In this document: piece by piece, positions 4,275 to 56,739 of the stretch
Layout of the letters: every line of letters starts with the position of its first letter
How positions within the stretch are numbered: position 1 is the stretch's first letter
Source: Entoloma clypeatum
Taxonomy: Eukaryota; Basidiomycota; Agaricomycetes; Agaricales; Entolomataceae
Reading direction: 5' to 3'
Assembly (NCBI GenBank): GCA_963565915.1
Contig: OY751490.1
Location: 1,612,001-1,676,000, forward strand
DNA length: 64,000 nt
Notes under the pieces: model-generated
Seen by the model: only the letters and a program-made list of their open reading frames with translations
Database searches by the model: none
Told to the model about the DNA's origin: nothing
Program-made: the position numbers and the translations under genes

Positions 4275-4295
4275 CCGGTATTTTATATTCCGGAT

Positions 4296-7307: not shown

Positions 7308-7373
7308 GCGAAACAGAGTACCTATATATATGTGGGAAAAAGTAAGATGTATTTAGAAGTATGTACTAAATAT

Positions 7374-7381
7374 GGGGGGGG
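7374..7381 (+). promoter_or_regulatory. Copia polypurine tract
   Basis: A run of eight G directly before the 3' LTR start at 7382, the expected plus-strand priming position. Confidence 0.7.
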
Positions 7382-14704: not shown

Positions 14705-14736
14705 CTTCTGACTTCATCCTCATTATTCTTGACCGA
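14705..14736 (+). pseudogene. left stub of the older Gypsy integrase, split by Gypsy-B
   Basis: The frame TCTGACTTCATCCTC.. reads SDFILIILDR up to the ACCGA duplication and joins LTKQSIFIP at 22022 when Gypsy-B is removed. This fits the integrase motif SDAILVIVDRLTKQ seen inside Gypsy-B itself. Homology fades left of about 14705. Confidence 0.6.
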
Positions 14737-15281
14737 TGTCATAACCATACGATTCACATCTGACTGATCCGACGACTCCGACATTTCATCCGCTCCAACA
14801 TCCGCTCCAACAAAACATTCTATTTATATTGAATATACTTCTACTACGTAACATCCCAACCATACTTACAAGTAGACACATGTTGTTCACTTTTCATTTG
14901 CTACTCTCCGTACTCCGAATGTTCCGATGGTCAACTCCGATATCTGCACATCACTTATAGTAATGCTGATCATTCTAGTCTACTATAAATAGTGTACAAA
15001 CCTGTCGTAGAACCTCAGTTCAAATATCATATGTTATACCTCATTCGCATCCGTCTCTACTTGCCTTTGAGCATTCTCTCCGTCACCTCCGCTCATCCGC
15101 TCATCTGCTCATCCGACATCCGCCAATCCAAAATTGAGGACCACATCAAAGAGTGGGGCGCAACACACAAGTTGAAGCCAGGTCCTTTCTGCCAACGTCG
15201 CACTTACCGCATTCCGCTCCTCCGCTACTCCGCTCCGACTCGTCCGACGTTTTCCGACGTTGAGAAACACGCTACGTGACA
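14737..15281 (+). repeat. Gypsy-B 5' LTR
   Basis: Starts TGTCATAACC, ends GCTACGTGACA (TGTCA/TGACA inverted ends). It contains TCCG-rich pyrimidine blocks and a TATA-like TACTATAAATAG at about 14981. No standard tRNA primer site is evident directly after it. Confidence 0.92.
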
Positions 15282-15332
15282 GTATATTTGAACTACCACC
15301 ATTCTTTGATTTACCCAACAACCTCTACCCAC

Positions 15333-16625
15333 ATGTCTCAAACCCGTAATACAGTTCGAACAACTAGGACTGCTCGTGCAGCAGCAGAACGTTCATCCTC
15401 CACACCACGCTCTGCTTTTCTTCGAGGAACACGCAATGTAACCATTACCCCTCGAGGAGCCACAGCATCATCATCCACTCCTACCCCCGGACCATCCGTT
15501 CCTCCGCCTTCTTCCGACTCTCAGCTCCCACCACTTCCTGCCAGTCCTCCACTAAACCCACCAACGGAACCCTCCACACCCCTAAATTCTGGCTTATTCG
15601 GCGGACCTCCAGGAGGATCTCCTCCTCCTTCCGACGGTAGTTTACATGGAGATTTGGACGACTCTGATTCCAATCCAGATCAGGAACCCAATCTAGCTGA
15701 AGCCATTCTGCTCATGACCAAAGAGTTGAAACATCAAGATACAAAGAAGAAAAAGTCGTATGCCAACGAACCAGATACCTTCGACGGATCCGATCCGCGC
15801 AAACTCTCCGCATTCATTTTACAATGCAAACTTTACTTCTCCGACAACGACAACTTCGACTCAGAACATTCCAAAGTCAACTTTGCCATGTCTTACTTCC
15901 GAGGCACAGCACTCGAATTTTTTGAACCCTTCATTCTAGATGATGATGAACCCAATTGGCGGGGTTCTTTCCCCGAGTTTGTCCGACTTCTCCGCTCCGA
16001 GTTTGGTACCATTGACCCTCAGGGCGAAGCCGAAGAACAGTTGGACAACCTACGGATGAAGGAAAATCAAAAGATATTGAAGTACAACGTTGAATTCCAA
16101 TGTCTTGCTACCAAGACTGACTGGGATGAAAACTCCCTCCAACACCGCTACTACGTCGGACTTCCAGATCGGATCAAGGACATCCTCTCCCAACAACCCA
16201 AGATCAAGTCTTTACCAGACCTACGATCCGCGGCTCATACTATTGACGCTCGCTACTGGGAATGTCAACGAGAGAAATCCAGAACCAATAAACCCACTCC
16301 CAAGTCCGACAAGAAACAATCCGCTCCGAACCAATCCACTCCACAAACATCATCAAACAAACCCTCCGCTCCCGCTACCGCTTCCGCTTCCACATCCGCT
16401 CCGAAACCCGACCTCTCCAGTAAATTAGGCAAAGACGGCAAACTGACGTATCAAGAACGCAAACGTCGTTTCGATAATAACCTTTGCGTATTCTGCGGTA
16501 GCGTCGGACACGCTGTCAAGGACTGTCCCAAGTCCACCTCCTCCGCTTCCAAGGCTAAAGGGAAAGCCGCCCAAGTTGGCACTCAAGCCAAGGAAAAAGG
16601 TAAGGAGATCGAGTCAAAAAAATAG
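15333..16625 (+). CDS. gag: Gypsy-B Gag
   Basis: 430 residues from ATG 15333; the frame is open from 15276 but has no earlier ATG. A low-complexity Ser/Thr/Pro N-terminus is followed by the retrotransposon capsid region (PDTFDGSDPRKLSAFILQCK, LEFFEPF, FPEFVRLLRSEFG), a Pro/Ser/Ala linker and one CCHC zinc knuckle (CVFCGSVGHAVKDC at about 16489-16530). The C-terminus is Lys-rich and ends TCA AAA AAA TAG, which contains the frameshift site. Uninterrupted. Confidence 0.93.
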   Translation: MSQTRNTVRTTRTARAAAERSSSTPRSAFLRGTRNVTITPRGATASSSTPTPGPSVPPPSSDSQLPPLPASPPLNPPTEPSTPLNSGLFGGPPGGSPPPSDGSLHGDLDDSDSNPDQEPNLAEAILLMTKELKHQDTKKKKSYANEPDTFDGSDPRKLSAFILQCKLYFSDNDNFDSEHSKVNFAMSYFRGTALEFFEPFILDDDEPNWRGSFPEFVRLLRSEFGTIDPQGEAEEQLDNLRMKENQKILKYNVEFQCLATKTDWDENSLQHRYYVGLPDRIKDILSQQPKIKSLPDLRSAAHTIDARYWECQREKSRTNKPTPKSDKKQSAPNQSTPQTSSNKPSAPATASASTSAPKPDLSSKLGKDGKLTYQERKRRFDNNLCVFCGSVGHAVKDCPKSTSSASKAKGKAAQVGTQAKEKGKEIESKK

Positions 16626-16657
16626 GCAGTGGTCCTCATGAAGCACGGTCTGAGGAC
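16616..16657 (+). promoter_or_regulatory. programmed -1 ribosomal frameshift signal (gag to pol)
   Basis: The heptamer A AAA AAA (16616-16622) is in the X XXY YYZ phase of gag and directly precedes the gag stop TAG. After a 9-nt spacer (16623-16631), GTCCTCA (16632-16638) pairs perfectly with TGAGGAC (16651-16657), extendable by two G-U pairs, around a 12-nt loop. A -1 shift places the ribosome in the frame that is open for pol from 16622. All three parts of a classical signal are present. Confidence 0.8.
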
Positions 16658-19600
16658 TGCGTTGACTCTCTCCGTGCCTCCGCTCCCATCCGACTTAACG
16701 CGTCCACTCTCTCCGATCCAAACTCTTTACGTATCAATATCTCATCTTCTTTTTTCTCTTCAGATTCTGTTCCAGCACTTATTGATTCAGGATCTACTCA
16801 CTGTTTTATTGACAATAACTTTTCCTCCGCTTATGATCTTCCGACCTCCGCTATTCCGCCTTTAGAACTAAAGCTTTTCAACGGTTCTTCTAACATGTTT
16901 ATCACTCAAGTTGTAACAATACCTATATGTTTTCCTTCAGGTGAATCTTTTGAACAGGATTTTTATGTTACTCCGCTCAACTCCGCTTCTTCCGTGGTTC
17001 TTGGATACAACTGGCTCACCCGCCACAATCCTATGATTGACTGGGTATTGGGCAGTATCACTTTCCGTCCACAGATGCAAAAAGAGCCGTTTCCGACATC
17101 GACGTCGACCCCCTCCCAAGGTAGGACAGCTACGCTTCCTCCTCCGGAACCTCCGATCATACCTCCGCAGATTTCACTCATTAACGCAGCCGCATTTATG
17201 AGGGCATGCAAATTGCCTGGTACACAATCCTTTCGACTTCACCTTTCAACTCCCTCCGTTTCCGCTCACTCCGCATCCGCTTCCGACACCCCCGACTTGA
17301 CAAATGTACCCAAAGAATACCATGACTATGCTGACATCTTCAGTAAAGGAAAAGCAGACACTCTTCCACCCCACCGTCCCTACGACCTCATGATTGAACT
17401 TGAAGAGGGCTCCGCTCCTCCGTTCGGTCCGATCTACTCCCTTTCACAAACCGAACTCAATGCCCTCCGTGAATTCATTGACGAACACCTCACCATTGGA
17501 TTCATCCGACCCTCTTCCTCTCCACACGGTGCTCCCGTCCTTTTCGTTCGTAAAAAGGATGGCTCCCTTCGTCTTTGCATCGATTTCCGTGGTCTTAACA
17601 AAATCTCAAAGAAGGACCGATATCCGCTTCCGCTCATATCCGACCTTCTCCAGACCGCTGGAAAAGCCAGTGTCTATACGGCTCTCGACCTCCGACATGC
17701 CTATCACCTCGTCCGCATAGCGGAAGGAGATGAATGGAAAACCGCCTTCCGCACGCACTACGGGTCTTTTGAATGGCTTGTCATGCCATTTGGACTCACC
17801 AACTCCCCAGCCGTTTTTCAACGCTTCATGAACAACATCTTCCACGACCTGCTCGATAAGTATGTTACCATATATCTCGACGACATCCTCATCTACTCTG
17901 ACTCTCCCTCCGAGCATCGGAAGCATGTCCGCGAAGTCCTCTGACGTCTCCAACAACACGGCTTATACGCACGCGCAGACAAATGCGAGTTTTCTACGGA
18001 TACTGTTGAATACCTTGGCTTTATCCTCTCTCCGACAGGCCTCTGCATGTCGGATAAGAAAGTCAAAATTATTCAAGATTGGCCTGAACCAAGGAAGGTC
18101 AAAGACATTCAGTCTTTCTTAGGTTTTGCCAATTTTTATCGATGATTCATTCCTTACTACTCCGAAATCACTGTTCCGCTCACTCGACTCACCCGCAAAA
18201 ACACACAATGGCACTTCTCCGACTCCGCTCGCAAATCTTTCAAAACTTTGAAGAAAGCCTTTACCACGGCACCTGTTCTTACGCATTGGATTCCCGACAG
18301 CCCTATTATTGTCGAAACCGATGCCTCCGACTACGCTTTGGGTGCAATCCTCTCCATCTGCACCTCCGACGACGAAATCCATCCAGTCGCTTTCCACTCC
18401 CGCACCTTTACACCTCCCGAATTAAACTATGACACCCACGACAAAGAACTATTAGCGATCCACAATGCATTCAAGGTTTGGCGTCACTACCTTGAAGGCT
18501 CCGCTGCTCCGATCGATGTCATAACGGACCACAAAAATCTTGAGTACTTTTCTACTACCAAGATTTTATCACGTCGACAAGCTCGTTGGTCCGAATACCT
18601 CTGCCAGTTCAATATCATCATCCGCTTCCGCCCTGGCCGTTTAGGTACGAAGCCCGATCTTTTAAGTAGACGATGGGACGTCTACCCTAAAGAGGGAAAT
18701 AGCGACTATTCGTCCGTCAACCCAAGCAACTTCAAACCCATCTTCACACAAGAACAGCTCACCACTTCACTTTGCGCAACAGAGTTATATACGCCCGTCC
18801 TCCGTGCCACAATCATCATGGATACGGATCAGCTCTGCTCCGACATCCTCTCCGCTCTTCCGACCGATCCCATTTATACCTCTTTCCTCGACAATCCTAA
18901 TCCACGCTGGATCGTGAATGAAGCAGGTTATCTACTCCACAATGGACATATCTATGTTCCCAACTCATCCAACCTCCGTCTCCGCATCCTCCGCAATAAG
19001 CACGACCATATCCTCGCTGGACACCCTGGTCAAAATAAGACTATTAGTCTTATCCAACGAGAATACACTTGGCCTGGAATGCGCGACTTCGTCAAAAAGT
19101 ATTGCAAGTCATGTACCACTTGCATGCGCGCCAAACCCCAACGTCATAAACCCTACGGTCTGCTTAAACAACTCCCTATTCCTGAACGTCCCTGGCATTC
19201 TATTTCCATGGATTTCATTGAACCCCTTCCGACATCTGCTGGCTCCGATGCAATTCTGGTCATTGTAGACCGCCTCACTAAACAAGGCACCTTCATCCCT
19301 ACCACCATTAATTGCACATCCGAAGACCTAGCAAACCTTTTCGTGCTTCACGTCTTTTCCAAGCACGGAGTTCCGCAAAATGTCACATCCGATCGCGGAC
19401 CTGAATTCGTCTCCCGCTTTTTCCACTCTCTTGCAAAAGCCCTCGATATGAGACTTCACTTCACTTCTGGATATCACCCTGAAGGCGATGGTCAAACCGA
19501 ACGCACCAACCAGACACTCGAACAATACCTCCGCATTTTCTGCAACTACCAGCAAGACAACTGGTCCGCTTTGCTTCTGCTTGCGGAGTTCGCTTACAAC

Positions 19601-20287
19601 AACACTCTGAGTGCCACCACAGGTGTATCACCATTCTTCGCCAACAAAGGTTATCACCCCGACATTACACTCCATCCGGAACGTGATCTAGCATCCGATA
19701 AAGCTCGACAATACATCATCGACTTAGATGAATTACATCAAGAACTAAAGACTGCTGTCGCAGAGGCACAACAACATTATCAAGGCCCTGCGGATGTCCA
19801 ACGTTCTCCACCTCCCCCGCTCCACGTCGGACAAGAAGTCTTTGTTAAAGCTAAGTTCTTCCGCACCACACGACCCACCCAAAAGTTATCCAACAAATAT
19901 GCTGGCCCATTTGAAATCATAGCCCAACCCGGCACGCACTCCTTTACACTACGTCTACCCGACACTATGCGTGCTATACACCCCGTCTTCCACATATCCA
20001 TGCTCAAACCAGCAACTCCTAACAAGATTCCAAATCGGATACAATCTCCTCCGCCTCCGCTCGAGATGGACGGAGAAACCGAATACGAAATTGCGGAAAT
20101 CATCGACTCAAAGATCGATAAAATATGACGCTGCAAACTCCTTTACCTCGTCCGCTGGTTAGGTTATGAAGACACCAGTGAAGAGTTTTCTTGGTTACCC
20201 ACATCCGAGCTTGAACACGCAGCGGATACGGTAGCAGACTTCCACTCCGCTCAACCAACTAAGCCAGGCCCCTTATCGCGCTTGTAA
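16622..20287 (+). pseudogene. pol: Gypsy-B Pol: protease, RT, RNase H, integrase, chromodomain; three in-frame TGAs
   Basis: One frame of 1222 codons with stops only at TGA 17942, 18143 and 20126. Protease ALIDSGSTHCFID (catalytic Asp about residue 55), RT with YLDD (about 418-421), RNase H (ETDASDYALGAIL; NYDTHDKELLAI), HHCC zinc finger (GHPG..CTTCMRA) and integrase (SMDFIEPL, SDRGPEF, GQTERTNQ, catalytic residues about 864, 924, 960) follow. The C-terminal chromodomain (CKLLYLVRWLGYED, SWLPTSELEHA) lies after the third TGA. All three TGAs stand where the family has Arg (VL-R-RL, YR-R-FI, KI-R-RC) and each is one C-to-T step from CGA. This fits deamination at CpG. Open pieces are 16622-17941, 17945-18142, 18146-20125 and 20129-20287. 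Confidence 0.9.
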
Positions 20288-20333
20288 CAAAAAGAAAAGA
20301 AAATCTATTAAAATTTTATACTAACAAAAAAAA

Positions 20334-21340
20334 CTACTTTTGCTGTTTTTTGTTAGATACCCCCTCCGTCTCCTCGTTCCACTCCGATCCGGATTCCTCT
20401 TCCGCTTCCTCCATCCGCTTCCGCTTCTTCGTTTCTTCTTCTTCTTCTTTTTCTTCTTCTACCTCCTTTGCCAACTCCTCCAATACCCTATCATACTCCT
20501 CCGCATCCTCGTCCTCGTCGGATCCCTCCTCCGAAGCCTCCAAATCCTCCCTCCACACGATAACCATCAAAAGCTCCTTGATCTCCCACAGTTCCTTCAA
20601 CTCCGCCTTTATCAGCCGCATCTCCCTTATCATGCTCCTAAGCCCTCTCACCACCTCCGTGCCTATGACCACCTCCGGCGGACCAAACCCCTCCGGCATG
20701 AACTCCGGCTCCTCCGATGCTGCGGCTATCCGCAATCCCTCCGCGGTCCCCTCTCCCTTGGACGATCCTGCCTTCGCGTTCTTCGTCGCACCACCTGCCA
20801 CCTTAGCCTTTCCGACCCTCACCGCCTTGGTCATCCTCCGCTTCACCTCCGACTCCGCTTCCGCTCCCGTTCTGCAGCTTCGTTTTAAACGCTGGCACCG
20901 CCAGCACGATGAAGCATTGTCATTCCTAAAGAACAAGTTAATAACGAAGCGTATAAAGAAATAGGAAAAACTCACTCCGATGGCCAAAAACACAAGTCCC
21001 CCGCTTTCAAGCAGGAGGTGCAATCCTCCTTCCCCTGCTCGTAACTCGCAGGCATATTCTTGAAAACCCCCTGCAGCCGGACCTTCTTCACCTCTGCACT
21101 TGCCGCATCCGCATCCGCATCCGCACCCGCACCCGCAACCGGTTCCTTCGCCTTCGCCTTCTCTGCCTTCCTCTCTGCTCGTCTCTGCTCTTTCGCCGCC
21201 CTCTTCGCCTCCGCGCGCTCTGCATCTTCCTTCGCGCGCTCCTCTGCCTCCTGCAGTTTCCTCTCCAACTCTTCGGTGACTTTCTTCTGGCGCTCCCTTT
21301 CAGCACGAAGAACGGCGAGGGGTGAGTTTTCAGCAGACAT
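20334..21340 (-). CDS. antisense gene inside Gypsy-B: Zn2Cys6-like domain plus coiled coil, 318 aa
   Basis: Two exons on the minus strand: 21340-20976 and 20925-20334, joined across a 50-nt intron (GTGAGT..TTCTTTAG) in frame, giving 318 residues. Residues 10-75 are a charged Glu/Arg/Lys/Ala helix (coiled coil or basic tail). The splice brings together CTSCLKAGDLC (Cys107, 110, 117) and CWRCQRLKRSC (Cys129, 132, 139). The spacing C-x2-C-x6-C-x11-C-x2-C-x6-C is that of the fungal Zn(II)2Cys6 DNA-binding cluster. The C-terminal half is acidic (poly-Glu) and ends with a basic patch (KKRKR). It lies between the pol stop (20287) and the 3' LTR (21472), transcribed towards pol, so the 3' LTR side would supply its promoter. 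Open reading despite pol decay suggests selection. The family identity and any role in element regulation are inference. Confidence 0.75.
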
Positions 21341-21471
21341 AACGGATAGGCGTCGGGATAGATGTTGTGGTTGGGTGACAAGAGAGAAAGATCACGCACA
21401 AAGCTTTTCAACCAATGGTCACGTGGATTACCTCATCTGGGCCTCAGGGTTCGGCCCTAAGAGGGAAATAC

Positions 21472-22016
21472 TGTCATAATCATACGATTCACATCCGACT
21501 TATCCGACGACTCCGACATTTCATCCGCTCCAACATCCGCTCCAACAAAACATTCTATTTATATTGAATATACTTCTACTACGTAACATCCCAACCATAC
21601 TTACAAGTAGACACATGTTGTTCACTTTTCATTTGCTACTCTCCGTACTCCGAATGTTCCGATGGTCAACTCCGATATCTGCACATCACTTATAGTAATG
21701 CTGATCATTCTAGTCTACTATAAATAGTGTACAGGCCTGTCGTAGAACCTCAGTTCAAATATCATATGTTATACCTCATTCGCATCCGTCTCTACTTGCC
21801 TTTGAGCATTCTCTCCATCACCTCCGCTCATCCGCTCATCTGCTCATCCGACATCCGCCAATCCAAAATTGAGGACCACATCAAAGAGTGGGGCGCAACA
21901 CACAAGTTGAAGCCAGGTCCTTTCTGCCAACGTCGCACTTACCGCATTCCGCTCCTCCGCTACTCCGCTCCGACTCGTCCGACGTTTTCCGACGTTGAGA
22001 AACATGCTACGTGACA
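21472..22016 (+). repeat. Gypsy-B 3' LTR
   Basis: 545 bp, nearly identical to 14737-15281. The preceding AAGAGGGAAA (about 21459-21468) is a weak polypurine tract. The following ACCGA completes the target duplication. Confidence 0.93.
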
Positions 22017-22455
22017 ACCGATTAACAAAACAAAGTATCTTCATTCCACCACCATCCACTGCACCTCCGAAGATCTTGCCATCCTCTTCATATTACATGT
22101 CTTCTCTAAACATGGCATTCCCAAACATGTTACCTCCAACCATGGCCCTGAATTTGTCTCCAGATTCTTCTGATCTCTCAGAAAGGCTCTAAACATGACC
22201 CTCCACTTCACCTCCAGTTACCACCCTGAAGATGATGGCCAAACCAAATGCACTAACCAGACCCTTGAACAGTACTTGCGGATATTCTGCAACAACCAAC
22301 AGGACAACTGGTCTGCTCTCCTTCCAATCACAGAGTTCACATACAACAATGCACCTAGTGCTACCACTGGCATCTCTCCCTTCTTTGCTAACAAGGGTTA
22401 TCATCCAAACATCACTGTTCACCAGGAATGTGACCTCACCTCTTCCTGAGCCAAT
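22017..22455 (+). pseudogene. integrase fragment of an older Gypsy, interrupted by Gypsy-B
   Basis: Reads LTKQSIFIPTTIHCTSEDLA and onwards through the integrase core, close to the Gypsy-B integrase at 19270-19690. A TGA interrupts it (RFF-stop-SL), another stop follows at about 22448, and catalytic positions are lost: the second Asp is Asn (SNHGPEF) and the catalytic Glu is Lys (GQTKCTNQ). Nearly all changes are C-to-T or G-to-A at former CpG sites, and few CpGs remain. The left stub is at 14705-14736. Confidence 0.8.
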
Positions 22456-22594: not shown

Positions 22595-25186
22595 CTACAT
22601 TGCATACACCGCCGCGAAATTCCAACCTATATCGTCCAATGACAGGCTACCCTCCCCATCTCCATCTCCGCCGCCTCTGCTCGGGCTCAACACCGCCGCC
22701 GCTCCATCCTCCGTCAACGGTTTGCTGTCTTCTGCCACATCCCCAGCATCCCCAGGCACACAAGCATCAAGCAGAGAAATAATATCATCCAACGCTCTTG
22801 ATCTTCTCCCATTCGAGTTGGACGCAGGTTGCCCGGGTATGGATCGTAGCTCGGCCTTGGGCTCAACCACGGAGGGGGCCGCATCCGTCGGTGCATCATC
22901 CTCATCACTGCCATCGCCTCCAGCTCCAGCTCCCCCCTCTTCAGCCACAACCGAGTTGCGACTCGCCACACGAGCAGGCAAAAGCAGCGGACGCAGCGTC
23001 GATGACCGCCTTTTCGGCGCTGTCGCATCACTACCAGCCGCGGATGGAGCTCGGCCGCTGCTCATAAACGGATCATCTCCATCCCCATCCACACCCCCAG
23101 ACCCCGCCAACCCAAACGGACCCGTGACCGTCGTCCTCCTCCGGCCCCTCCCTCCTCCCATCGCCAGCGCCATGCTGATGATCTTCCCCGTCTTGTCGTC
23201 CACCGCGACCGAGCGCCGGTGCCTCCCGTACGCCATATCCGACAGCTGCTTCTCGGGGAGGGTCCACGAGAGCGACGCCGCGCGGAGGTTGGATATCGCG
23301 CGTTTGCGTTTGGGCGAGAGCGGGAGCTTGAATGTGCATCTCTTCGTTGGCGTCGTGCTGGTGGGTGTCAGCGGTGCGTTCACAAACGGGTCGTTTTCGT
23401 TTTCGTTTTCGGTTTCGGTTTCAACGTCCATCTTGATCAACGGCCCCGCGGCGGCGACGATTTTTTGGGAGGCACGAGTTGGCGTCCGATCGCCATCACC
23501 ATCGCCGCAGTCGATTGTGATCGTTCCGCGTCCAAACAGCGCGTTTGTTCCGTCCGATGAGCTGGCCAGCGAGGCTCTCCGCAGATCCGCGATTTTCGGT
23601 TTTCGCTTCGGAGAGGGCGTCTTCGGTCCTTGGGAATCGGTCTCATCACTAGCACTGGCAGAACCTGAGAAGTAGCGGAGCTCAGGAAGCACAAAGTCCA
23701 CCTGATCGGGAGACGACAGCGCCGCAGACGACTTGAGTTGCCTAGATAAGCGCCGAGCATGTGTCCCAAAAGCGTCATCGTCATTTCCCTTGTCCTCGGC
23801 CACCAACCTGTCGGGTCCCGAGCTAGACTTGGCAGTGGGCGTCAGGTTCCCAACATCGGCGAGCATGGATCTTGTCTTTCGAGGTGTAGCCATCTCTTTC
23901 GGCCGGCGCTGGTGCAGATAGGTGCCGCCAAAGTCATATAAATCACCCAGGCTGACAGGAGGAAAGACAGGAAGCTCGGACGAAGGATCAGAAGCTTGTG
24001 GTGGTGGTGGTGGTGGTGGTGGCACCTGATCATCTTCCGATTTTGTAGTAGTCGATGACGATACATCTTGACAATTCATAGCAGCCACAGGGGGCACTTC
24101 ATTTGCGGGGTCAGGGCTGCTCGTCTTGATGGGACTAGAGGGGACACTTGGCAGTGTGAGGATAATGTTTGGCGAGGCGCCTGCTGGAGCCGAACGATGT
24201 TTTCGTGGTTGTGGTGCCTTCGACTTGCGCTTTTTCGCGGCGCGTATGGGTTTCGCAGGGACGTCGGCGACCAAAATGTCATAGATCGTTGTCTTCATGG
24301 CGTATTTCCTCTTCGAGGGAGCGGCCACGATCCCCGCCCCGCGCTTTATGGACTGCGTCCGACTAGACGGCAGGGGGTCACGGTGGTATGGGGTGAAGTT
24401 GTTGATGTTGCCGGTGGGGACGATGCCGAACGAGACGCTGGGTGTAAAGAAGCTGTCGCCAAAGGTGCAGAACGGATCCGCGTCGTCGTAAAAGTCTTGC
24501 AGATCTTGAGATACATCCTTGAAAAATGACTTTCTGGTCCGGATCAGGTTTGTGACCGCCTCGAGTGGGCTGCGGGGGCTTGGGGGCCAGTCAAGGAGAG
24601 AGCGGACACCAAGCAGGCTGAAACTGGGGGGCAAGAAGAGGAGAGAGGATTTGAGGCTGAGAGAAGATGTGGAGAGCGGTGCGCCTTGAAAGCCACGCCG
24701 TTTACCGAGACCACCGAGATCGATGTCGAGACTTGGGACGGAGAGACGGTCTTCGTCGAAAAGACGTGTCGAACTCCGGGGTGATCGAGAAAGTCCTTTG
24801 GTTAGAGATGGACAAGGGGAACTTAGTGGCGAAGGCGAAGGAGAGTAAGAGAGAACGGGCGTGTAATAGACAGACAATGTTGGCGAAGGGAGAAGGTCGA
24901 TACTGGAACTTGCGGAGCCGGTCATGAATTCGGCACGAGGTCCCGGAAGATCGATGAACAAGTCTCCTAAAAGTTCGCTGGAGATATAATGAGGCTTGCT
25001 CCTCTTGGAATGGGTCCTTTTAATGACAATGCGCTCTTTCTTTTTACCGGGGAGGTTAGACAGTAATTTCCTGGGCGGACCGCGTGGAAGCTTTTCTGTG
25101 ACATCTGCAAAATGTATTTGATGATTATCAACCTGTCAAAACGGTCCGCGAATACCTTTCCGGAGTCGGACATATGGTGCTCCCAT
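22595..25186 (-). CDS. large low-complexity, probably nuclear protein of unknown function
   Basis: Two exons: ATG 25186 to 25156 and 25104 to stop 22595, separated by a 51-nt intron (GTATTC..TTTTGCAG). Together 846 residues. I chose this start because the upstream frame joins DVTEKLPRGPPRKLL in phase, and the 788-codon main frame is open above its first Met. The N-terminus is strongly basic (GKKKERIVIKRTHSKRSKPH). The rest is Ser/Pro-rich and disordered with many S/T-P-x-K/R sites. A motif occurs twice (SPKRKPKIADLRRASL and SPKRKRAISNLRAASL), perhaps a docking or binding repeat. A poly-Pro run and acidic blocks also occur. This looks like a cell-cycle-kinase substrate or chromatin protein, but I do not recognise the family. 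An alternative upstream Met exists at 25348 in the exon-1 frame. Confidence 0.7.
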
Positions 25187-25725
25187 GACGGTGTTTGTGT
25201 GGCGTGGACTTGGGATTGTTAGAGGTAGATCGGGAGGAGGCTGAGCGGGTTCCAGGGACGAAGCGATAAACTGGACGGTCTGCATGAGCCAAGAAAGCAA
25301 GGAGGACAGTATGTGGCAGAGACGCGCGATGAATCCCACCAGAGACATGGCGTGGGGGATTGGCGGACGCCATCTCGTGTCAGGATTGCCTTAAGTTGGC
25401 GTTGAGAATAAAAGTCAGCCTCAGTCACGAAGTCACACAATGTCACAGAAATTAAAAGAAAACTATTTCATCCAGCGTCTCTTGCACGTTTCGTTGTCAA
25501 TATTAATGCCGCCAAGCCATTTACCCTGACACGTGCCGTAATTTATCAAAAAGGTACTTAAGGAAATCTGGAATACTTACTGATCAGGCAGGTTTCGCAC
25601 ACCGCAGGCTTCGGAGGAGGATCTTCTGCTTCCCTCTAAAAAGCTTAAAAGGTCCTTCAAGTTGCGCTGTCCGGCCAATATCTCGTCCGAACCTTTCCTT
25701 TCCACGCCGACGTGGCTCCCTCGCA

Positions 25726-26551
25726 ATGGCACCAAAGACCTACACCTGGATATCGGTCTGGTTCTTGTTCACCGCCCCGCTGATGCTGTGGGATGCAGGC
25801 TATTGTCTTATGCGGCAAGTTTTTCACGCTCGTATCTCGAGGCTCCACGTTGAAGAAACTCACGGTCACTATTTGTAGACCGCGTTCTATGGTGGGCGGA
25901 GACCTCCATTGGATTTGGAAGCCGTACGAGCTGTACGAAAAGGTTGACTATGTGAGTAAGAGACGAATGCTTCTTCCTCTTGGCCTCATGCTGATGATCT
26001 CCTCTAGGTATATGGCGTCAAAGCGTTTGAGAACGGAGAAGGATTCGCTGGCGCTGCAGGTACGATCCCTTTGTTCACTCGTTCCCATGAACCTGCAGGC
26101 TCAATGCCGAAACTTTTGCCAGCTGTTCTGAATGTTCTGGAGATTTCCACGAATGTGCGTCCATTACGATGATTCTTCCCGTCCGTCATCGACCCTCGAC
26201 GGTGTTTTTTCCAGCTGATATACATGTATCATGCCCATATCATCCGATCTGACTTCGCACCCCTGCTCGGCTACACGGGCGCCGTCATGACGCTTGCAAA
26301 GACGTTATTATACATATCGCAAGAATATTTTTGCAGTGGCTGCGCAGTCGGCCACAACAGCCTATTCATCGCTTTTTGCTTTTGGATCCTTCCCAATATG
26401 TGCGTGTTTATTTCGTCGTGGAGCTAGGGCGTCTCTGAGAAATACCCTCGTCATCAGTGTATGGATAACCTTCAGCTCCTTAATCATGTGGAGGTTAGGG
26501 CGGGACATTACCACGTTAATTAGAAGGGCGCAGCGTGTCAAGACAAATTGA
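25726..26551 (+). CDS. EXPERA / emopamil-binding-like integral membrane protein (copy 1)
   Basis: Six exons: 25726-25814, 25879-25951, 26008-26059, 26099-26154, 26215-26399, 26458-26551; 182 residues in one continuous frame. The first intron uses a GC donor (GCAAGT..TTTGTAG), and the others GT-AG, down to 39 nt. Helix 1 is TWISVWFLFTAPLMLWDAGY. A conserved loop (RPRSMVGGDLHWIWKPYELY, then KVDYVYGVKAFENGEGF) and two or three further membrane segments (AVMTLAKTLLYISQEYF; FIAFCFWILPNIVW) follow. The pattern fits fungal proteins of the EXPERA/EBP fold (sterol-isomerase-like four-helix membrane proteins), but catalytic function is not established for this branch. The tail RRAQRVKTN is basic and probably cytosolic. 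Confidence 0.7.
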
Positions 26552-26559
26552 TCGGCGTC

Positions 26560-28930
26560 TAGAGGTCTCCCAGGTATCTATTTAATTTATATTAGACCCT
26601 TTTCAATGATGCACAACACTTATATAGTATGTATACCGTCACACGTGGCGATCTCGTGTTTAGACTACGATCTTTCCGGATTTGCACCCATTCACCCCGC
26701 GGTGGATTTGCCACTGGTCGAAGACTATAACATAGACGCCTGCGATGTTCTGCTAGTTCTGGCTATTGACGTGTATCGCATCCTCATGTCAGATTGCCCC
26801 CCCCCCTCCCCCTCACGGCTCGGAACATGAGTTTAGGAATCTTTTCGACCATCTATCGAAAGCCGTTGTATCATCAAATGACGTTGCAGCAGTGTGTCGT
26901 TTTTTCCCCATGACATGAGTACTTACTACACGTCAGGCAATGTTCAAACTCGACCAAGCAGACGTCCCATCTGTGTTGCTTAGTTTCGTGCCTATCATGA
27001 TTAGTGTTTAAGCTATACTATGACCTCGAACGCTGCGAGTCTATTCCTTTCCTCCAACAGGCAAGACCCAAAACCGAGGACTCTATTGAGCCTCGAGGAG
27101 TCGACATCGACGTCGTAAGTACAAATGCAACGAGTTAATCAACATATTAATTTCATCACGGACTGACGAACTCTTCTCCTGTCTTCAAGAAAATTAAAAC
27201 CACTTGACACCTTCACCTTCGGCGCCACAAATCCGGTTTTTGGCTCAGAATCGAAAACGTCCGGATGGGCGTCAAACCAAGACAGACAACTTAGTCGAAC
27301 AGGAGCAACTGCCCGACATGAACTTTGCTCCTGAGTTGGCCAAAAAAAAAAAAAAACCTGATTCTGGGGGTTCTGGAAACTCAGAAAATGAATGCCCAAA
27401 AAAGAAATCAGAAACGTGAACTTTACCTTTTACGAATGCCTCCTGAAAACTGTCCTTGGGAAGCATGAAATCCGGGATCCTTTGTTGATTTCGGGCTGCC
27501 TCGCCGAGGTCCACACAAAAAAATCTGGTGAGTTTGCGATCCATGCCGTGGCGTTTTGAGTGTGAGGCTAACAGAGTATCAAGGGGCAATGGAAGGTAAT
27601 AAATGAATGGGACAGTGACAACGATCTCTCGACACCTCACCATCCAATCTGTACCTGCTCAACGGCCGCATGTTGTCCAGACCCCATCGCCTACTATTTT
27701 ATGAAGTCTTGCTGAAGCGTAATTACACCTCAATATCGCAAAGTTGATAATAAAGGAATGGGAAGCATATACTAGCTCGGGGAATCAAGGAGAAAAAATC
27801 TGACAAATGGCCTGCAGTGAGGCACTGACCTCAATCTTCCTCCGAGTCCAACTAAACTCCGCCTTCAAGGTAGCTGTCGCCGGGGACCTCCATTGTGTCT
27901 TGGCTCTCGTCAAGTTGGGATCACCCATCATCATACAATGACATTATGCCAAGGGCTTGACTGTGCACCGTGACTTACCCGACATTGTACACATCTAGAT
28001 CTCTCTCTGTCTCTACACAACTGTGACACTAGTGCGCCCAATCAAAAAGCATGACCAACGAGCGATCTGCCGGACTCGCATACTCAAGGGGATCGTATGA
28101 CGCAACCCGTCAATTCTCTCTTCCCATGTTCTCGATTCGATCGTCATCAACCTTGGGGGAGGCAAACACAGGAAATGGCATTTGAGAGTTTTTAACTCTG
28201 CTTTGTTCCGAAGCTTTCCCCCGCTCCGCAGTTGACAACCCACCGGTGTTTAATTAATACCCCACTCTGGTACGGATCTACAAAAATCAACTGCTTTCTA
28301 TTGATTGTTGATTGTTGCGAGTCTAAATTTAGAAAAATGCTCTCCACCATATGCTGATTATCGTCGAACTTGAGGTGGGCCTGGACCACCCACTTACTGC
28401 CAAAACCCTTAGATTGGTCAAGCGAAAGGGATCCAGACGGTTTCAGCGAGTGTAAGTGACATAACCTTTTATTAGAAAGTACTTGACAATGTTGACAACG
28501 ATGAAGTCTTACAAAGTTACAGTCCACTACCATCAATTACGCCCTCATGGGTGCTCGCTCGATTTCTCAAAATGTTGGAAAAGTCATCTGTGGCAGAGCT
28601 TCAGTTTATCGCGGCATTACTTACCTGCAGACTTGGCCAGTTCGAAGTTGAATCATCGAATACCTATGTCAAAGAATGACATAGACCATGGCTTTTATAG
28701 TTTGTTCCACATGCTGTACCCTCGTGACAGGCTTTCCAATAATACTTATCAGCGCCAAGGTTTAACAACAAGTGGTTGCAGTCCTGTTGTTAGGTCAATT
28801 GCGATGCACCGCTTGCTCATCGTCGACAGGTTTCCCGAAATGGGCCCCATATGTATCGATCGATCATGGCCATTGTTAGGTACATACCTCACTAATTCTC
28901 TCCCTTCTTGCGATCGCCTGGCAGGCTTGA
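26560..28930. other. no confident gene; possible terminal exons at about 27061-27210 (+)
   Basis: A well-formed pair of exon ends is visible on the plus strand: after an acceptor CCAACAG (27060), GCAAGACCC.. reads ARPKTEDSIEPRGVDIDV up to a donor GTAAGT (27115). After TTCAAG (27189) the frame ends KIKTT-stop. I cannot find convincing upstream exons. Short frames elsewhere do not look coding. The same holds for 33652-36024 in copy 2. Confidence 0.35.
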
Positions 28931-28934
28931 AGCA

Positions 28935-30673
28935 ATGTCAGTGCCTCTGCAGCTGGTTCCGCTTGTTGAAGAAATTTGGGAAGCGTACGTCACTTCATAC
29001 CCCGTCTTCCTGCGGTTCTGATGCGATTGATATAGTCGGGTCCATGAATACCTCAGTCTCTTGGCAGTCTGTTCGTCCCGATACCGGTACCGTTGATTCA
29101 TTCTATCAAGCTAATGGCCTGCAGCCTTTCTCTTCTACGACCACCTCATCACTCTGGGTGCGTTCCGAAACTCCGAATAGTAGCGGCCTTCACGATGCTT
29201 AAGTGACCATGAACAAAAAGGAGCCGAGATCGATTTTTGTTGGCGACGTCCGTTGCACAGCGGCCGTTGGTTTTTCCTCAATCGATACTTTGCGTTCTTC
29301 GGAAATGCCGTGATTACTGTTCTGAATTTCATTAAATTCTCTCCAGCAGTGCGTTCTCCATGTTTCCCCTTCCCCTTCGAAGTCCTCTAATATGACCTTT
29401 CGCACAGAGGTGTGTTCAATCTTAATTTGTGCGATTTTGCGCGTCGAAAACCTTGTTCAGTTGCGAGAAATACAATCTTTTTCGGCAGACGCTGCTCATC
29501 GTAAATGTATCCATGGTTGGCAGTGAGTCGGGCTCGTCTTCTTTTGATAAAATCTCTAATTGTGACCGTAATTCACGCAGTCCTCCTGAGCATGCGGACA
29601 TATGCTTTATACAATCGGTCAAAACGTATCATGTGGTTCATGATTCTATCAGCCTCTGGGTTGATTGCCCTTGCCTGTGTACGTCCTATTCCTGTGTCCT
29701 GTGGATTGGGAGTTGAGGAACCTTCCAGTATTTCACGTTCTTGGATAAGAAGGCACTGTCTACCCAATCTATAGGATGCTATAATGCCGTACCGACAGAC
29801 GTGTATGTCCACCCATCCTGTTTTCTTCCAGATCAGACCTGAAGTGGAGCATTTATTCAGGGGCATTCGTACGTTTTGATATGCTGTTTTCTTTCGAGCA
29901 AAGTACGGATAATATCGTAGATTATGCCGCAGCGTGGGAGGCAAACTTTGTCTATGATACCATCGTTTTTTTCCTCACTACTTTTAAAACCTGGGAAGCA
30001 AGACATGGCTTCTCTGGTGGTCGTATTGGTTTGGTTACGCTCATCTTCAGAGACGGTATGTCTTCCACCCTGTTTGACTATTCACGGTCAGTTTGTTGAT
30101 ATGATTCGTCTTGCAGGCGCTGTATACTACGCGTGAGTCATGCTTCCATTTCGATGGCTAGCAATCTCGACGCATCTTGGCACTTCCAGTGTAATGGCTA
30201 TGGCAAACTTCGCGAATATCTTGACATTCTATGTAAGGTAGCTCTCCAGCACACAGATTGTATCGTTAACGAGTTCTCCACAGTTGTGCGGAGTACGATA
30301 CATCTTCAATTTCCGTTCGAGATGGACTTTGACGAGAAGCTATAGCCTTTCCTCAAAGGCAGCTTGTCATCGTTTGCAAGCACGTACGCATTTTACATAC
30401 TACACCTTGAAACGCCCTTGGTTCTGATGTGGTCCTGCTGCCAGGTTGTCCGTCACCCTCATGTCCCGGCTCATGCTCAATCTGCACCAGACGGCCGAAA
30501 CTCATAACATTCATGTGAATTCTGGTCTTCCTAATCATGGCCCACTCACCAATCCTAGCATCGAACTAAGTCCTATGTGGGCGAACGGTCTCACAACCAC
30601 GGGTGAACTACCGTTGTTCCAGATCCACACATTCGACTCCCACCGTATACCCCCAGCTCCCCCAGAGCCATGA
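28935..30673 (+). CDS. DUF6533-like seven-helix membrane protein (copy 1)
   Basis: A multi-exon gene starting at ATG 28935 (MSVPLQLVPLVEEIWEA). It continues with the diagnostic helix 1 (LSLLAVSFLFYDHLITL, spliced at about 29104-29153) and the following loop (AEIDFCWRRPLHSGRWFFLN, 29216-29280). Later exons encode TM segments with LLSMRTYALYNRSKRIMW (29580-29640), AAWEANFVYDTIVFFLTTFK (29925-29990), LVTLIFRDG and AMANFANILTFY (30194-30235). The last exon (SVTLMSRLMLNLHQTAE, from 30445) is hydrophilic and ends at 30673. About 300 residues. The family is large in Agaricomycetes and receptor-like, but ligand and function are unknown. Two divergent paralogues lie at 51964-53642 and 54211-55914. The exon joining near 29355-29461 is uncertain. 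Confidence 0.75.
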
Positions 30674-31615
30674 CATTCCCTTCCGATATTTAACGACTAA
30701 TAACATACCCTTTGCACTGGCTTACAGTCTAGATTACCTGGAGTTGAGGGAGGAGAAGACCGACTGTAGGATAGCGACGTGGTCCTCTGGGTCGTACATC
30801 ATGGATGCACAGATTAGTACAGCGCGCCATGTTGATCAGGGTATACAGTACTTGTACTTGTACCATATGATGTACTGTACTTAGTGTACATCCTCAAAGC
30901 CTCACCAGAAGTGGGCATGAGGACTTTGTGTCCGGCGCATGTCTAGTACAGTTTTGTATGAAATGTGGATATTCTGTGACGATGGTCTATTTCATTTATT
31001 GGGGTTAAATTCGGCTTTAGATTCTATCCTGAGACTAGGCCTTGAAGTACTTATGCACTAGCGATATTTCTTTGGCAGGTGTTGAAGTGACCGGTGCTGC
31101 TACTGTACAGCGTTCGTCCACAATGACGGGAGGCAGCCCGAGGCTATTCTTAGCCATTCGCATTACGTTCACCAACTTCAACTTCAACAGATATCTATTG
31201 TGGGTTTCAACCGCAGCTATATTGAAACTGGGTACTGGTCCGTTCGGAGTGGCACTCATTCTGTTTTCCTCTGTAGGCAGTTTTTCATTCACTGTTAACG
31301 TTAGTCTTACCGACTCTGTCGTCGTCCTACGCCGTCACTAAATCAGCACACCAACTCCTCCGTCTTTTCTTGGTCCCCCGATGTCGCCATACGAGTATTG
31401 CCCTTTGCCCTGAGGCAAGTCAGGGTCCTTTGGTTGTCCAATCCTACGCTGTTCAATGCCCTTGGTTTTTTTTTCAGATTAGCGCCCGCCCAAGCCACTG
31501 TGACTCGAGGAAACTCATTGATGTTATCTTGTTTTGCTGTCGTGCTGTTGACCTTATCTACCATATAAAGCTTTCACCATGAAGCTCGTCGAAGTACCAT
31601 CTGTTTCTTCTAGGA
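30674..31615. other. no confident gene
   Basis: A minus-strand frame at 31292-31035 (85 codons) and the overlapping plus frame 31042-31341 (99 codons) mirror each other. Neither has a known motif or splice context. A CTTGTACTTGTACC-type short repeat lies at about 30845-30885. The same applies to 37768-38709 in copy 2. Confidence 0.35.
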
Positions 31616-32199
31616 ATGTCATCTAACGTCATTCGCCACCCTGCCGCAGTCCGCGCGGTGTTCGTCATCGTGTTTCCGTACAGCAATAGTTCTCTGGCGC
31701 ACTGGTCTGTGTTCTTTCCCTCCCCAGGCGATGTAAGGACCGCGATTTCGTTTTCAATTTTTCAAATCTCAACAATCTAACGCCACTGTAGCCGAACAGT
31801 GGGAAGCTGTTGCACGTCATCGGAAGCCCAATGCGAGGCTATCAACACGAAGCAAAGCACTGGGATGCCAATATCGCTACCTCTCAGCGCCCTCACACCA
31901 AGCATTTCCTGGGGTTTACCTATGCTTCTTACATCGTTGACCCTCCTCCGATTTTCGACCCGCAAACCGGGAAACGCCAACAAGACATTCGTCAGCTGCA
32001 GCACTTCAGTATGTATGACAGATTTGAACGTGTGGCATCCTTCGTCCCGGCTCCAGGTGTCGCTCATACAAAATATTGGCCAACGGGCACTCCGATGAAA
32101 CAGGTCAAGGCTTGGTCGCGGGGTATTCCAGGGGTCAGGACGTGCCACGATTGGACCAAGGACTTTGTGCAGTTCTGCGTCGCCCAGCCTTCTCTCTGA
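31616..32199 (+). CDS. small conserved fungal hypothetical protein, 174 aa (copy 1)
   Basis: Two exons, 31616-31732 and 31792-32199, joined over a 59-nt intron (GTAAGG..CACTGTAG) in phase 0, giving 174 residues. The N-terminus (AVFVIVFPYSNSSLAHWSVF) is a beta-rich start. It is followed by GKLLHVIGSPMRGYQHE, a variable middle and a C-terminal PGVRTCHDWTKDFVQ. The general pattern resembles a widespread fungal family of unknown function with an HWxLFxP..G..hhVxG start and a CxEWxxxxV end. The match is from memory, so the family name is left open. No signal peptide or catalytic motif was seen. Confidence 0.65.
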
Positions 32200-32415
32200 G
32201 TCTGCTATCGATGCAGTCCAACCCATTAACTTAGTCCCGAGGGTCATGGATGATCAGCCTCTGGCTTGCTCAAGAAATCCAAGAGTAGTTCTGCCTTTAA
32301 TCTCTGTGATTATTATTATGTATCATTCGCACTCTTTATAAATTTGTAAATTATGTATTCGATACCACTCACAACATCGTGCTTCTCTAACGCGTTTTTC
32401 CTTACTGAAACCCAT

Positions 32416-32615
32416 NNNNNNNNNNNNNNNNNNNNNNNNNNNNNNNNNNNNNNNNNNNNNNNNNNNNNNNNNNNNNNNNNNNNNNNNNNNNNNNNNNNNN
32501 NNNNNNNNNNNNNNNNNNNNNNNNNNNNNNNNNNNNNNNNNNNNNNNNNNNNNNNNNNNNNNNNNNNNNNNNNNNNNNNNNNNNNNNNNNNNNNNNNNNN
32601 NNNNNNNNNNNNNNN
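32416..32615. other. assembly gap (200 N)
   Basis: Exactly 200 N, a conventional scaffold-gap length. Both flanks are the edges of the 6.9-kb duplicated segment. Confidence 0.99.
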
Positions 32616-32817
32616 CCCTGACACGTGCCGTAATTTATCAAAAAGGTACTTAAGGAAATCTGGAATACTTACTGATCAGGCAGGTTTCGCACACCGCAGG
32701 CTTCGGAGGAGGATCTTCTGCTTCCCTCTAAAAAGCTTAAAAGGTCCTTCAAGTTGCGCTGTCCGGCCAATATCTCGTCCGAACCTTTCCTTTCCACGCC
32801 GACGTGGCTCCCTCGCA

Positions 32818-33643
32818 ATGGCACCAAAGACCTACACCTGGATATCGGTCTGGTTCTTGTTCACCGCCCCGCTGATGCTGTGGGATGCAGGCTATTGTCT
32901 TATGCGGCAAGTTTTTCACGCTCGTATCTCGAGGCTCCACGTTGAAGAAACTCACGGTCACTATTTGTAGACCGCGTTCTATGGTGGGCGGAGACCTCCA
33001 TTGGATTTGGAAGCCGTACGAGCTGTACGAAAAGGTTGACTATGTGAGTAAGAGACGAATGCTTCTTCCTCTTGGCCTCATGCTGATGATCTCCTCTAGG
33101 TATATGGCGTCAAAGCGTTTGAGAACGGAGAAGGATTCGCTGGCGCTGCAGGTACGATCCCTTTGTTCACTCGTTCCCATGAACCTGCAGGCTCAATGCC
33201 GAAACTTTTGCCAGCTGTTCTGAATGTTCTGGAGATTTCCACGAATGTGCGTCCATTACGATGATTCTTCCCGTCCGTCATCGACCCTCGACGGTGTTTT
33301 TTCCAGCTGATATACATGTATCATGCCCATATCATCCGATCTGACTTCGCACCCCTGCTCGGCTACACGGGCGCCGTCATGACGCTTGCAAAGACGTTAT
33401 TATACATATCGCAAGAATATTTTTGCAGTGGCTGCGCAGTCGGCCACAACAGCCTATTCATCGCTTTTTGCTTTTGGATCCTTCCCAATATGTGCGTGTT
33501 TATTTCGTCGTGGAGCTAGGGCGTCTCTGAGAAATACCCTCGTCATCAGTGTATGGATAACCTTCAGCTCCTTAATCATGTGGAGGTTAGGGCGGGACAT
33601 TACCACGTTAATTAGAAGGGCGCAGCGTGTCAAGACAAATTGA
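32818..33643 (+). CDS. EXPERA / emopamil-binding-like membrane protein (copy 2)
   Basis: Same six-exon gene as at 25726-26551, shifted by 7092, including the GC-AG first intron. I saw no difference. It is probably the same locus assembled twice, so count one gene. Confidence 0.7.
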
Positions 33644-36028
33644 TCGGCGTCTAGAGGTCTCCCAGGTATCTATTTAATTTATATTAGACCCTTTTCAATG
33701 ATGCACAACACTTATATAGTATGTATACCGTCACACGTGGCGATCTCGTGTTTAGACTACGATCTTTCCGGATTTGCACCCATTCACCCCGCGGTGGATT
33801 TGCCACTGGTCGAAGACTATAACATAGACGCCTGCGATGTTCTGCTAGTTCTGGCTATTGACGTGTATCGCATCCTCATGTCAGATTGCCCCCCCCCCTC
33901 CCCCTCACGGCTCGGAACATGAGTTTAGGAATCTTTTCGACCATCTATCGAAAGCCGTTGTATCATCAAATGACGTTGCAGCAGTGTGTCGTTTTTTCCC
34001 CATGACATGAGTACTTACTACACGTCAGGCAATGTTCAAACTCGACCAAGCAGACGTCCCATCTGTGTTGCTTAGTTTCGTGCCTATCATGATTAGTGTT
34101 TAAGCTATACTATGACCTCGAACGCTGCGAGTCTATTCCTTTCCTCCAACAGGCAAGACCCAAAACCGAGGACTCTATTGAGCCTCGAGGAGTCGACATC
34201 GACGTCGTAAGTACAAATGCAACGAGTTAATCAACATATTAATTTCATCACGGACTGACGAACTCTTCTCCTGTCTTCAAGAAAATTAAAACCACTTGAC
34301 ACCTTCACCTTCGGCGCCACAAATCCGGTTTTTGGCTCAGAATCGAAAACGTCCGGATGGGCGTCAAACCAAGACAGACAACTTAGTCGAACAGGAGCAA
34401 CTGCCCGACATGAACTTTGCTCCTGAGTTGGCCAAAAAAAAAAAAAAACCTGATTCTGGGGGTTCTGGAAACTCAGAAAATGAATGCCCAAAAAAGAAAT
34501 CAGAAACGTGAACTTTACCTTTTACGAATGCCTCCTGAAAACTGTCCTTGGGAAGCATGAAATCCGGGATCCTTTGTTGATTTCGGGCTGCCTCGCCGAG
34601 GTCCACACAAAAAAAAATCTGGTGAGTTTGCGATCCATGCCGTGGCGTTTTGAGTGTGAGGCTAACAGAGTATCAAGGGGCAATGGAAGGTAATAAATGA
34701 ATGGGACAGTGACAACGATCTCTCGACACCTCACCATCCAATCTGTACCTGCTCAACGGCCGCATGTTGTCCAGACCCCATCGCCTACTATTTTATGAAG
34801 TCTTGCTGAAGCGTAATTACACCTCAATATCGCAAAGTTGATAATAAAGGAATGGGAAGCATATACTAGCTCGGGGAATCAAGGAGAAAAAATCTGACAA
34901 ATGGCCTGCAGTGAGGCACTGACCTCAATCTTCCTCCGAGTCCAACTAAACTCCGCCTTCAAGGTAGCTGTCGCCGGGGACCTCCATTGTGTCTTGGCTC
35001 TCGTCAAGTTGGGATCACCCATCATCATACAATGACATTATGCCAAGGGCTTGACTGTGCACCGTGACTTACCCGACATTGTACACATCTAGATCTCTCT
35101 CTGTCTCTACACAACTGTGACACTAGTGCGCCCAATCAAAAAGCATGACCAACGAGCGATCTGCCGGACTCGCATACTCAAGGGGATCGTATGACGCAAC
35201 CCGTCAATTCTCTCTTCCCATGTTCTCGATTCGATCGTCATCAACCTTGGGGGAGGCAAACACAGGAAATGGCATTTGAGAGTTTTTAACTCTGCTTTGT
35301 TCCGAAGCTTTCCCCCGCTCCGCAGTTGACAACCCACCGGTGTTTAATTAATACCCCACTCTGGTACGGATCTACAAAAATCAACTGCTTTCTATTGATT
35401 GTTGATTGTTGCGAGTCTAAATTTAGAAAAATGCTCTCCACCATATGCTGATTATCGTCGAACTTGAGGTGGGCCTGGACCACCCACTTACTGCCAAAAC
35501 CCTTAGATTGGTCAAGCGAAAGGGATCCAGACGGTTTCAGCGAGTGTAAGTGACATAACCTTTTATTAGAAAGTACTTGACAATGTTGACAACGATGAAG
35601 TCTTACAAAGTTACAGTCCACTACCATCAATTACGCCCTCATGGGTGCTCGCTCGATTTCTCAAAATGTTGGAAAAGTCATCTGTGGCAGAGCTTCAGTT
35701 TATCGCGGCATTACTTACCTGCAGACTTGGCCAGTTCGAAGTTGAATCATCGAATACCTATGTCAAAGAATGACATAGACCATGGCTTTTATAGTTTGTT
35801 CCACATGCTGTACCCTCGTGACAGGCTTTCCAATAATACTTATCAGCGCCAAGGTTTAACAACAAGTGGTTGCAGTCCTGTTGTTAGGTCAATTGCGATG
35901 CACCGCTTGCTCATCGTCGACAGGTTTCCCGAAATGGGCCCCATATGTATCGATCGATCATGGCCATTGTTAGGTACATACCTCACTAATTCTCTCCCTT
36001 CTTGCGATCGCCTGGCAGGCTTGAAGCA

Positions 36029-51458: not shown

Positions 51459-51503
51459 CGGAGATGGTGATCACTCCTAAGGGTTCTTCTGAATTGTTTG
51501 TAG

Positions 51504-56722: not shown

Positions 56723-56739
56723 TATACGAGATGGGCGGT

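Follow-up and report, generated by a model that had tools for sequence, protein, structure and literature searches.

A two-exon antisense gene for a probable zinc-cluster-type product in three Gypsy retrotransposon families of Entoloma clypeatum

Introduction

Why should a retrotransposon carry, between pol and its 3′ LTR, a gene that is read from the opposite strand and whose six-cysteine cluster comes into being only upon splicing, and is this gene kept for the sake of its protein? The question is raised by Gypsy-B, one of the elements found in a 64,000-nt stretch of fungal DNA (hereafter the window). The answer reached here is that Gypsy-B carries a two-exon antisense accessory gene that is maintained by selection and common to three Gypsy families within a single genome; the role of its product is addressed more tentatively, with reference to a four-base word that fills the elements bearing the gene.

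The element and its antisense gene

Gypsy-B (14737..22016, plus strand) is an LTR retrotransposon with a chromovirus-type pol, recognized by its LTR pair, by the direct repeat ACCGA found at both ends (14732–14736 and 22017–22021) and by its pol and gag domains. Seven of the 545 positions distinguish the 5′ LTR (14737..15281, plus strand, 545 bp) from the 3′ LTR (21472..22016, plus strand), the antisense gene having the latter on its upstream side. The gag gene (15333..16625, plus strand), identified from its open frame and profile scores, contains a zinc-knuckle-like stretch (Pfam: Retrotrans_gag, 31.8 bits; zf-CCHC, 15.5 bits, the latter below cut-off), and a domain search places after it, in the sense direction, protease, RT, RNase H, integrase and an SH3_Tf2-1 domain. 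The pol frame (16604..20287, plus strand; own stop at 20285) is interrupted by early stops at 17942, 18143 and 20126, whereas the antisense frame of the same copy is open, exactly as had been claimed when the locus was first described. Adjoining the element, at 22048–22449, is an older Gypsy integrase remnant having 73% identity over 300 nt to the integrase DNA of Gypsy-B.

The antisense gene runs on the minus strand from an ATG at 21340 to a stop at 20336–20334 and is thus placed tail-to-tail with pol. Exon 1 (20976..21340) contains the first half-cluster (~21022–20990) and exon 2 (20334..20925) the second (~20906–20874), the two being separated by a 50-nt phase-2 intron (20926..20975, minus strand) whose sequence, read from 20975 to 20926, has the ends GTGAGT...TTCTTTAG. 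Splicing in silico joins the halves, one per exon, into C-x2-C-x6-C-x11-C-x2-C-x6-C, with the cysteines at positions 107, 110, 117, 129, 132 and 139 of a predicted product of 318 aa; the coordinates and the product length of the original prediction, a minus-strand gene between pol and the 3′ LTR whose intron unites two half-clusters, are therefore borne out. Between the 3′ LTR and the antisense ATG the window copy has CACGTG and an inverted CCAAT; since inspection by eye revealed neither at the corresponding site of the two related families described below, no promoter is claimed.

The window holds other repeats as well. A Copia element at 1911–7663 has long frames of 572 and 1010 aa, and its terminal repeats show no difference across the 282 nt compared, which makes a recent insertion probable; a different Gypsy, Gypsy-A, starts at 59167 and continues beyond 64000 in a neighboring piece (L082); a direct duplication of ~6.9 kb (25524–32415 and 32616–39509) is 99.97% identical, and no Rfam match was found in 25000–41000.

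Distribution and conservation of the gene

Searched against the genome at the protein level, exon 2 has 136 matches, 22 of them with an internal stop. Forty window-family copies, the 20 best-scoring and 20 picked as divergent, were read out of these matches. The splice donor GTRAGT is kept in all 40, GTGAGT and GTAAGT both being present, and the acceptor AG in 39; exon 1 has a length that preserves the phase in 37 and the six-cysteine spacing is retained in 36, although 4 of these 36 have a stop codon within the cluster. In 28 of the 40 copies the frame stays open for 296 aa or more, one of the 28 having a shifted tail.

Maintenance of the gene is further indicated by its position with respect to the integrase. 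Since 102 of 3096 candidates were scored in the integrase search, the resulting copy counts are lower bounds: at least 71 window-family matches (88–100% identity, fragments counted) and at least 32 at 77–78% identity. The antisense core lies on the opposite strand no more than 532 bp downstream of 66 of 70 listed window-family matches, the second fragment of one copy having been omitted, and, in a sister family, within 550 bp and again on the opposite strand for 29 of the 32 listed integrase matches, as compared with part of the listed antisense matches. A search with the donor followed by C-x-W-P, a pattern that misses those sister copies bearing Trp-Ala, returned 137 and 24 places as against 0 and 2 in the reversed controls. 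The sequences of five odd places among 124 listed matches to this pattern were fetched and proved unrelated to the antisense gene.

The antisense protein of the sister family has 287 aa and is 36–38% identical to that of the window family in a gapped alignment. Its gene has the same phase-2 intron, located shortly after the first half-cluster, a loop of 10 residues between the cysteine halves and, after the third cysteine, Trp-Pro or Trp-Ala. Among the 27 copies analyzed (L054, whose start is not recognizable, being excluded) donor and acceptor are both present in 27, the six-cysteine spacing in 23 and the exon-1 phase in 24, while the intron ranges from 46 to 63 nt. A third family, represented by an element at C1:612–619 kb that was found through a search for TCCG clusters and only then seen to carry the gene, has at its 3′ end an antisense gene for 303 aa with a 53-nt phase-2 intron and a loop of 8. 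Thus, diverged homologues occupy the same position in three Gypsy families, each with its half-clusters separated by a phase-2 intron, and the cysteine pattern expected to recur across copies and related elements does so (36 of 40 and 23 of 27 copies in the first two families). In two further copies, reached via a related LTR, both half-clusters are present in antisense frames when read unspliced; in one of them (L087) the exon-1 frame is open for just 65 aa.

Outside these elements, searches of a protein database gave no homologue of the whole 318-aa protein at E up to 0.001 (7985 candidates sharing most words with it were scored), none of its residues 84–252 at E up to 1 among 511 candidates and none of residues 88–210 of the sister protein at E up to 1 among 1090 candidates.

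Selection on the antisense frame

Constraint was assessed by contrasting variants shared by at least three copies with private ones, nonsynonymous and synonymous changes (N/S) being counted in the antisense frame; the former presumably arose for the most part in the source lineages and the latter mostly after insertion. In the window family N/S is 124/110 for shared and 151/47 for private variants (p = 5e-7), and outside CpG the contrast is 40/49 versus 130/32 (p = 2e-8). Non-CpG private variants are evenly spread over codon positions 1, 2 and 3 (51, 55 and 56), whereas the shared ones fall mostly on the third (21, 15 and 53). Over exon 2, neither of the two wrong antisense frames displays a contrast between shared and private variants.

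The signal is not uniform. Residues 1–83, the N-terminal third, give no significant contrast when taken alone (p = 0.33), and in the 20 best window-family copies taken alone the contrast is absent (OR 1.07), the private variants of these copies being themselves biased toward third positions (47 of 88), a bias that might come from the window copy being the sole member of its subfamily. The integrase, used as a positive control in 16 copies, yielded OR 0.44 with p = 0.18. In the sister family the whole-gene N/S is 75/79 versus 174/59 (p = 3e-7), a contrast that owes much to the numerous private differences in exon 1, which is poorly aligned in some copies; exon 2 alone gives a weak contrast (p = 0.04) and, outside CpG, p = 0.49.

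Taken across copies, the shared/private contrast favors constraint, as the premise of selection on the gene demanded, yet it does not appear in the 20 best copies alone. The view that this is a maintained accessory gene is upheld by the synonymous bias of the shared variants, along with the 66 of 70 integrase neighborhoods and the donor conserved in every window-family copy.

The predicted zinc cluster of the product

Zn2Cys6 proteins are defined by six cysteines arranged as C-x2-C-x6-C / C-x2-C-x6-C and read CGG triplets. The antisense product has the C-x2-C-x6-C spacing in each half, with loops of 11, 10 and 8 residues in the window, sister and third families, respectively, and to this extent its initial classification as a Zn2Cys6-type protein holds; the profile score, on the other hand, does not sustain it, the whole window protein reaching 9.5 bits with Pfam Zn_clus (PF00172) against a curated cut-off of 21, and no Zn_clus match being found by Pfam in the whole sister protein. 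The trimmed clusters in their native order score 16.5 (window), 15.0 (sister) and 13.0 bits (third), all below 21. When the halves are swapped the scores become 23.1 bits for the window cluster, which exceeds the cut-off, 18.5 for the sister and 19.3 for the third; indeed, the Pfam alignment pairs the second half-cluster of the window protein with the first half of the profile. Controls in which one half is doubled, made for the window and third families, gave 11.5 and 15.3 bits for the former and 19.4 and 10.4 for the latter, the value of 19.4 being practically that of the swapped form. Since in addition the native sister cluster scores higher with ADD_DNMT3 (17.8 bits) than with Zn_clus, both being below cut-off, the swapped order of the half-clusters relative to the Zn_clus profile is suggestive only.

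Likeness to PF00172 thus consists in the C-x2-C-x6-C halves, a loop of 8–11 residues and an invariant lysine in one half, which is located four residues past the cysteine pair of the second half in all six rows compared from the three families; the differences are the score below cut-off, the position of the lysine-bearing half, which comes second, and the splitting of the cluster by an intron. A three-family profile run against the PDB had a single match up to E 10, namely the Zn2Cys6 protein LAC9 (E 0.7). The C-termini are basic (NKKQQK, AKKAKTQ and NKKQRTK) and look like nuclear signals. The same genome has 18 PF00172 matches, all above cut-off, compared with none in 14 control genomes, which points to a fungal host.

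A one-way word in the gene-bearing elements

TCCG, which is CGGA on the opposite strand, is the most over-represented four-base word of Gypsy-B (157 occurrences versus 40 expected), CGGA being found 30 times versus 24 expected. It is likewise the top word of the LTR, where the TCCG:CGGA ratio is 20:0 with 2.7 expected, whereas in host DNA (40289–58000) it occurs 50 times versus 68 expected. The excess extends into coding DNA: relative to codon-preserving shuffles, TCCG is in excess in Gypsy-B gag (z 3.1) and two pol pieces (z 5.8 and 5.6), the range over three pol pieces in all being z 5.6–6.5, as well as in Gypsy-A gag (z 5.1), and the Copia element has no excess (z 0.4 and 0.1).

A comparison of three gene-bearing families with two gene-lacking LTRs revealed TCCG:CGGA counts of 25:4 in the sister LTR (first 640 bp) and 22:0 in that of the third family (first 600 bp, the LTR ends not being fixed), as against 1:3 in Gypsy-A, which lacks the antisense gene since its pol runs into the LTR, and 0:0 in Copia. 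In 31 of 31 window-family LTRs CGGA is absent and TCCG is present 13–25 times per LTR. The LTRs of the three gene-bearing families have only short blocks in common (matches of 32 and 29 bp), so that their similar TCCG density is not simply a matter of shared sequence. For whole pieces, LTR included, the TCCG:CGGA ratio is 3.5–5.6 in gene-bearing elements and 0.8–1.1 in Gypsy-A, Copia and a nested Gypsy (L090). Enrichment is absent from the Copia element, the nested Gypsy and host DNA and is present on both strands inside Gypsy-A, the internal part of which has TCCG 90 times versus 30 expected and CGGA 75 times versus 37.

Genome-wide, a pattern of three TCCG at short spacing has 16,002 matches versus 1,650 for its reverse, overlapping matches being counted. 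According to our own grouping, 71 of 100 listed places, which lie on the forward strand at the start of contig C1, fall into three stretches of 6.5–7.1 kb, which belong to one copy each of the window and sister families, the latter being L084, and to the then unidentified element of the third family. Within the window-family LTRs the motif columns vary more than the others (7 of 76 versus 13 of 437, p = 0.02), a difference that CpG decay may explain.

A further TCCG-rich LTR type (L085:285–963, with 41 genome matches) was also noticed, the 1401-bp locus having 24 TCCG and 5 CGGA. No full-length element of this type was found, the two LTR pairs examined proving to be a nested Copia and a nested Gypsy (L089 and L090); the latter Gypsy (L090:1–3301, reverse strand) has a 156-aa sense frame after pol, and an antisense cluster was not found in it.

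Possible functions of the antisense protein

The fact that the gene-bearing elements are packed with a word of the kind read by Zn2Cys6 proteins suggests that the element may recognize its own DNA. The gene would be transcribed from the 3′ LTR side and then spliced, to yield a nuclear protein with a six-cysteine, Zn2Cys6-like zinc cluster whose halves are perhaps swapped; the targets of this protein would be, chiefly, the LTR arrays in which TCCG/CGGA has one orientation and, less so, the remainder of the element, and it would act in trans on the copies of the family, either regulating their transcription or countering silencing in a way comparable to that of Arabidopsis VANC. The orientation of the gene, for its part, would preserve the intron through reverse transcription, because the sense genomic RNA, which is the one reverse-transcribed, leaves the antisense intron unspliced; such protection is implied by the way in which LTR elements replicate.

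That the product is an accessory DNA-binding protein recognizing the arrays of its own element, so as to regulate it or keep it unsilenced, has in our estimation a chance approaching even. Somewhat more doubtful is the joint reading in which this Gypsy lineage would possess its own sequence-specific DNA-binding protein, Zn2Cys6-like with swapped halves and encoded by a spliced antisense gene, the one-way TCCG/CGGA arrays of the LTRs and of synonymous gag-pol sites would have co-evolved as its binding sites, and the whole would constitute a self-recognition system for trans-activation or anti-silencing, a retroelement counterpart of VANC.

A serious competitor, of a probability likewise short of even, accepts the gene as real and supposes that its protein helps in RNA binding or in packaging, reads chromatin or has other targets, the TCCG arrays being unrelated to it and owed to a host factor or to a role in the sense RNA. 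The presence of TCCG in the internal part of Gypsy-A, which has no such gene, would fit this alternative, as would the ADD_DNMT3 zinc finger as best score, below cut-off, of the sister cluster and the lack of special conservation of the words in window-family LTRs; it is less easily reconciled with the one-way LTR arrays occurring in three gene-bearing families and not in two gene-lacking LTRs, and with a search for TCCG clusters having led to a new family in which the gene is present.

It seems improbable that the activity resides in the antisense transcript, through double-stranded RNA or transcriptional interference with pol, and that the protein hardly matters. Antisense non-coding retroelement transcripts have indeed been described (PMC7264820, in its accessible part), and the gene, tail-to-tail with pol, lies wholly within the expected sense genomic RNA; the constraint, however, operates at the codon level in the antisense frame, the exon lengths keep the phase while the sister intron varies in length, and the six cysteines are kept in three families. 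Far less probable still is an antisense frame kept open incidentally, by selection on a sense frame or by base composition. It is true that, over exon 2 of the window family, one of the sense frames is more open than the antisense one (stops in 3 versus 10 of 40 copies), and this frame, which shares its third codon positions with the gene, displays a weaker, diluted contrast (OR 0.44, p = 0.002), the other two sense frames displaying none; but among the 27 sister-family copies exon 2 is interrupted by stops in 19, 27 and 19 when read in the three sense frames and in none when read in the antisense frame, by which this explanation is already contradicted, and the three families agree in splice sites and intron phase. 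An accessory DNA-binding protein directed to the arrays of its own element is retained here as the preferred, if tentative, reading.

Relation to known systems

HBZ is a spliced gene product of the bZIP type. It differs from the present case in being such a bZIP protein and in belonging to an animal retrovirus, HTLV-1, and resembles it as an antisense regulatory gene read from the 3′ LTR side (PMC11963269, PMC7264820, accessible parts). Closer in host is brtn, an additional antisense gene of a fungal Gypsy element, carried by the Boty-like retrotransposons of Botrytis cinerea (Zhao et al. 2011, Virology 417:248, as cited by later papers). In plants, antisense additional ORFs (Grande gene23, RIRE2 and Retand with TRP28) likewise lie between pol and the 3′ LTR and are present in most copies, the Grande product being nuclear and that of Retand predicted to bind DNA; aside from the different hosts, an intron, a zinc cluster and a self-target motif are not among the features described in the accessible parts of these sources (PMC7264820, PMC11963269).

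The closest mechanistic parallel is VANC, if the proposed role is correct. The VANC proteins are anti-silencing factors of Arabidopsis VANDAL transposons (PMC5735166, PMC10398659), and their target word occurs at high density and in one orientation in the noncoding parts of their own transposon (PMC5735166); to judge from the accessible parts of these papers, the likeness resides in a transposon-encoded protein and a dense one-way word in noncoding parts of its own element, here the LTRs of the three families (20:0, 25:4 and 22:0). On the other hand, VANDAL is a DNA transposon, the Gypsy-B word fills coding DNA too, and binding and loss of methylation are proven for VANC, the Gypsy-B case being built from sequence.

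A search of the mostly non-subscription literature brought up no fungal LTR element with an antisense gene of the zinc-cluster type. Antisense accessory genes as such are known, both in plant LTR elements and as Boty brtn; what is new is one that is predicted to be spliced and of the zinc-cluster type, common to three families and accompanied by a candidate target.

Significance

A review of the plant elements states that what the antisense additional genes of LTR retrotransposons do is not yet known (PMC7264820, accessible part). Here the gene, the type of fold and a candidate target word are found together in one element, so that a single binding assay could provide a function. The case also illustrates how a retroelement can retain an intron despite reverse transcription, and raises the question of what role a protein whose presumed sites span whole elements may have vis-à-vis the genome defence of the fungus.
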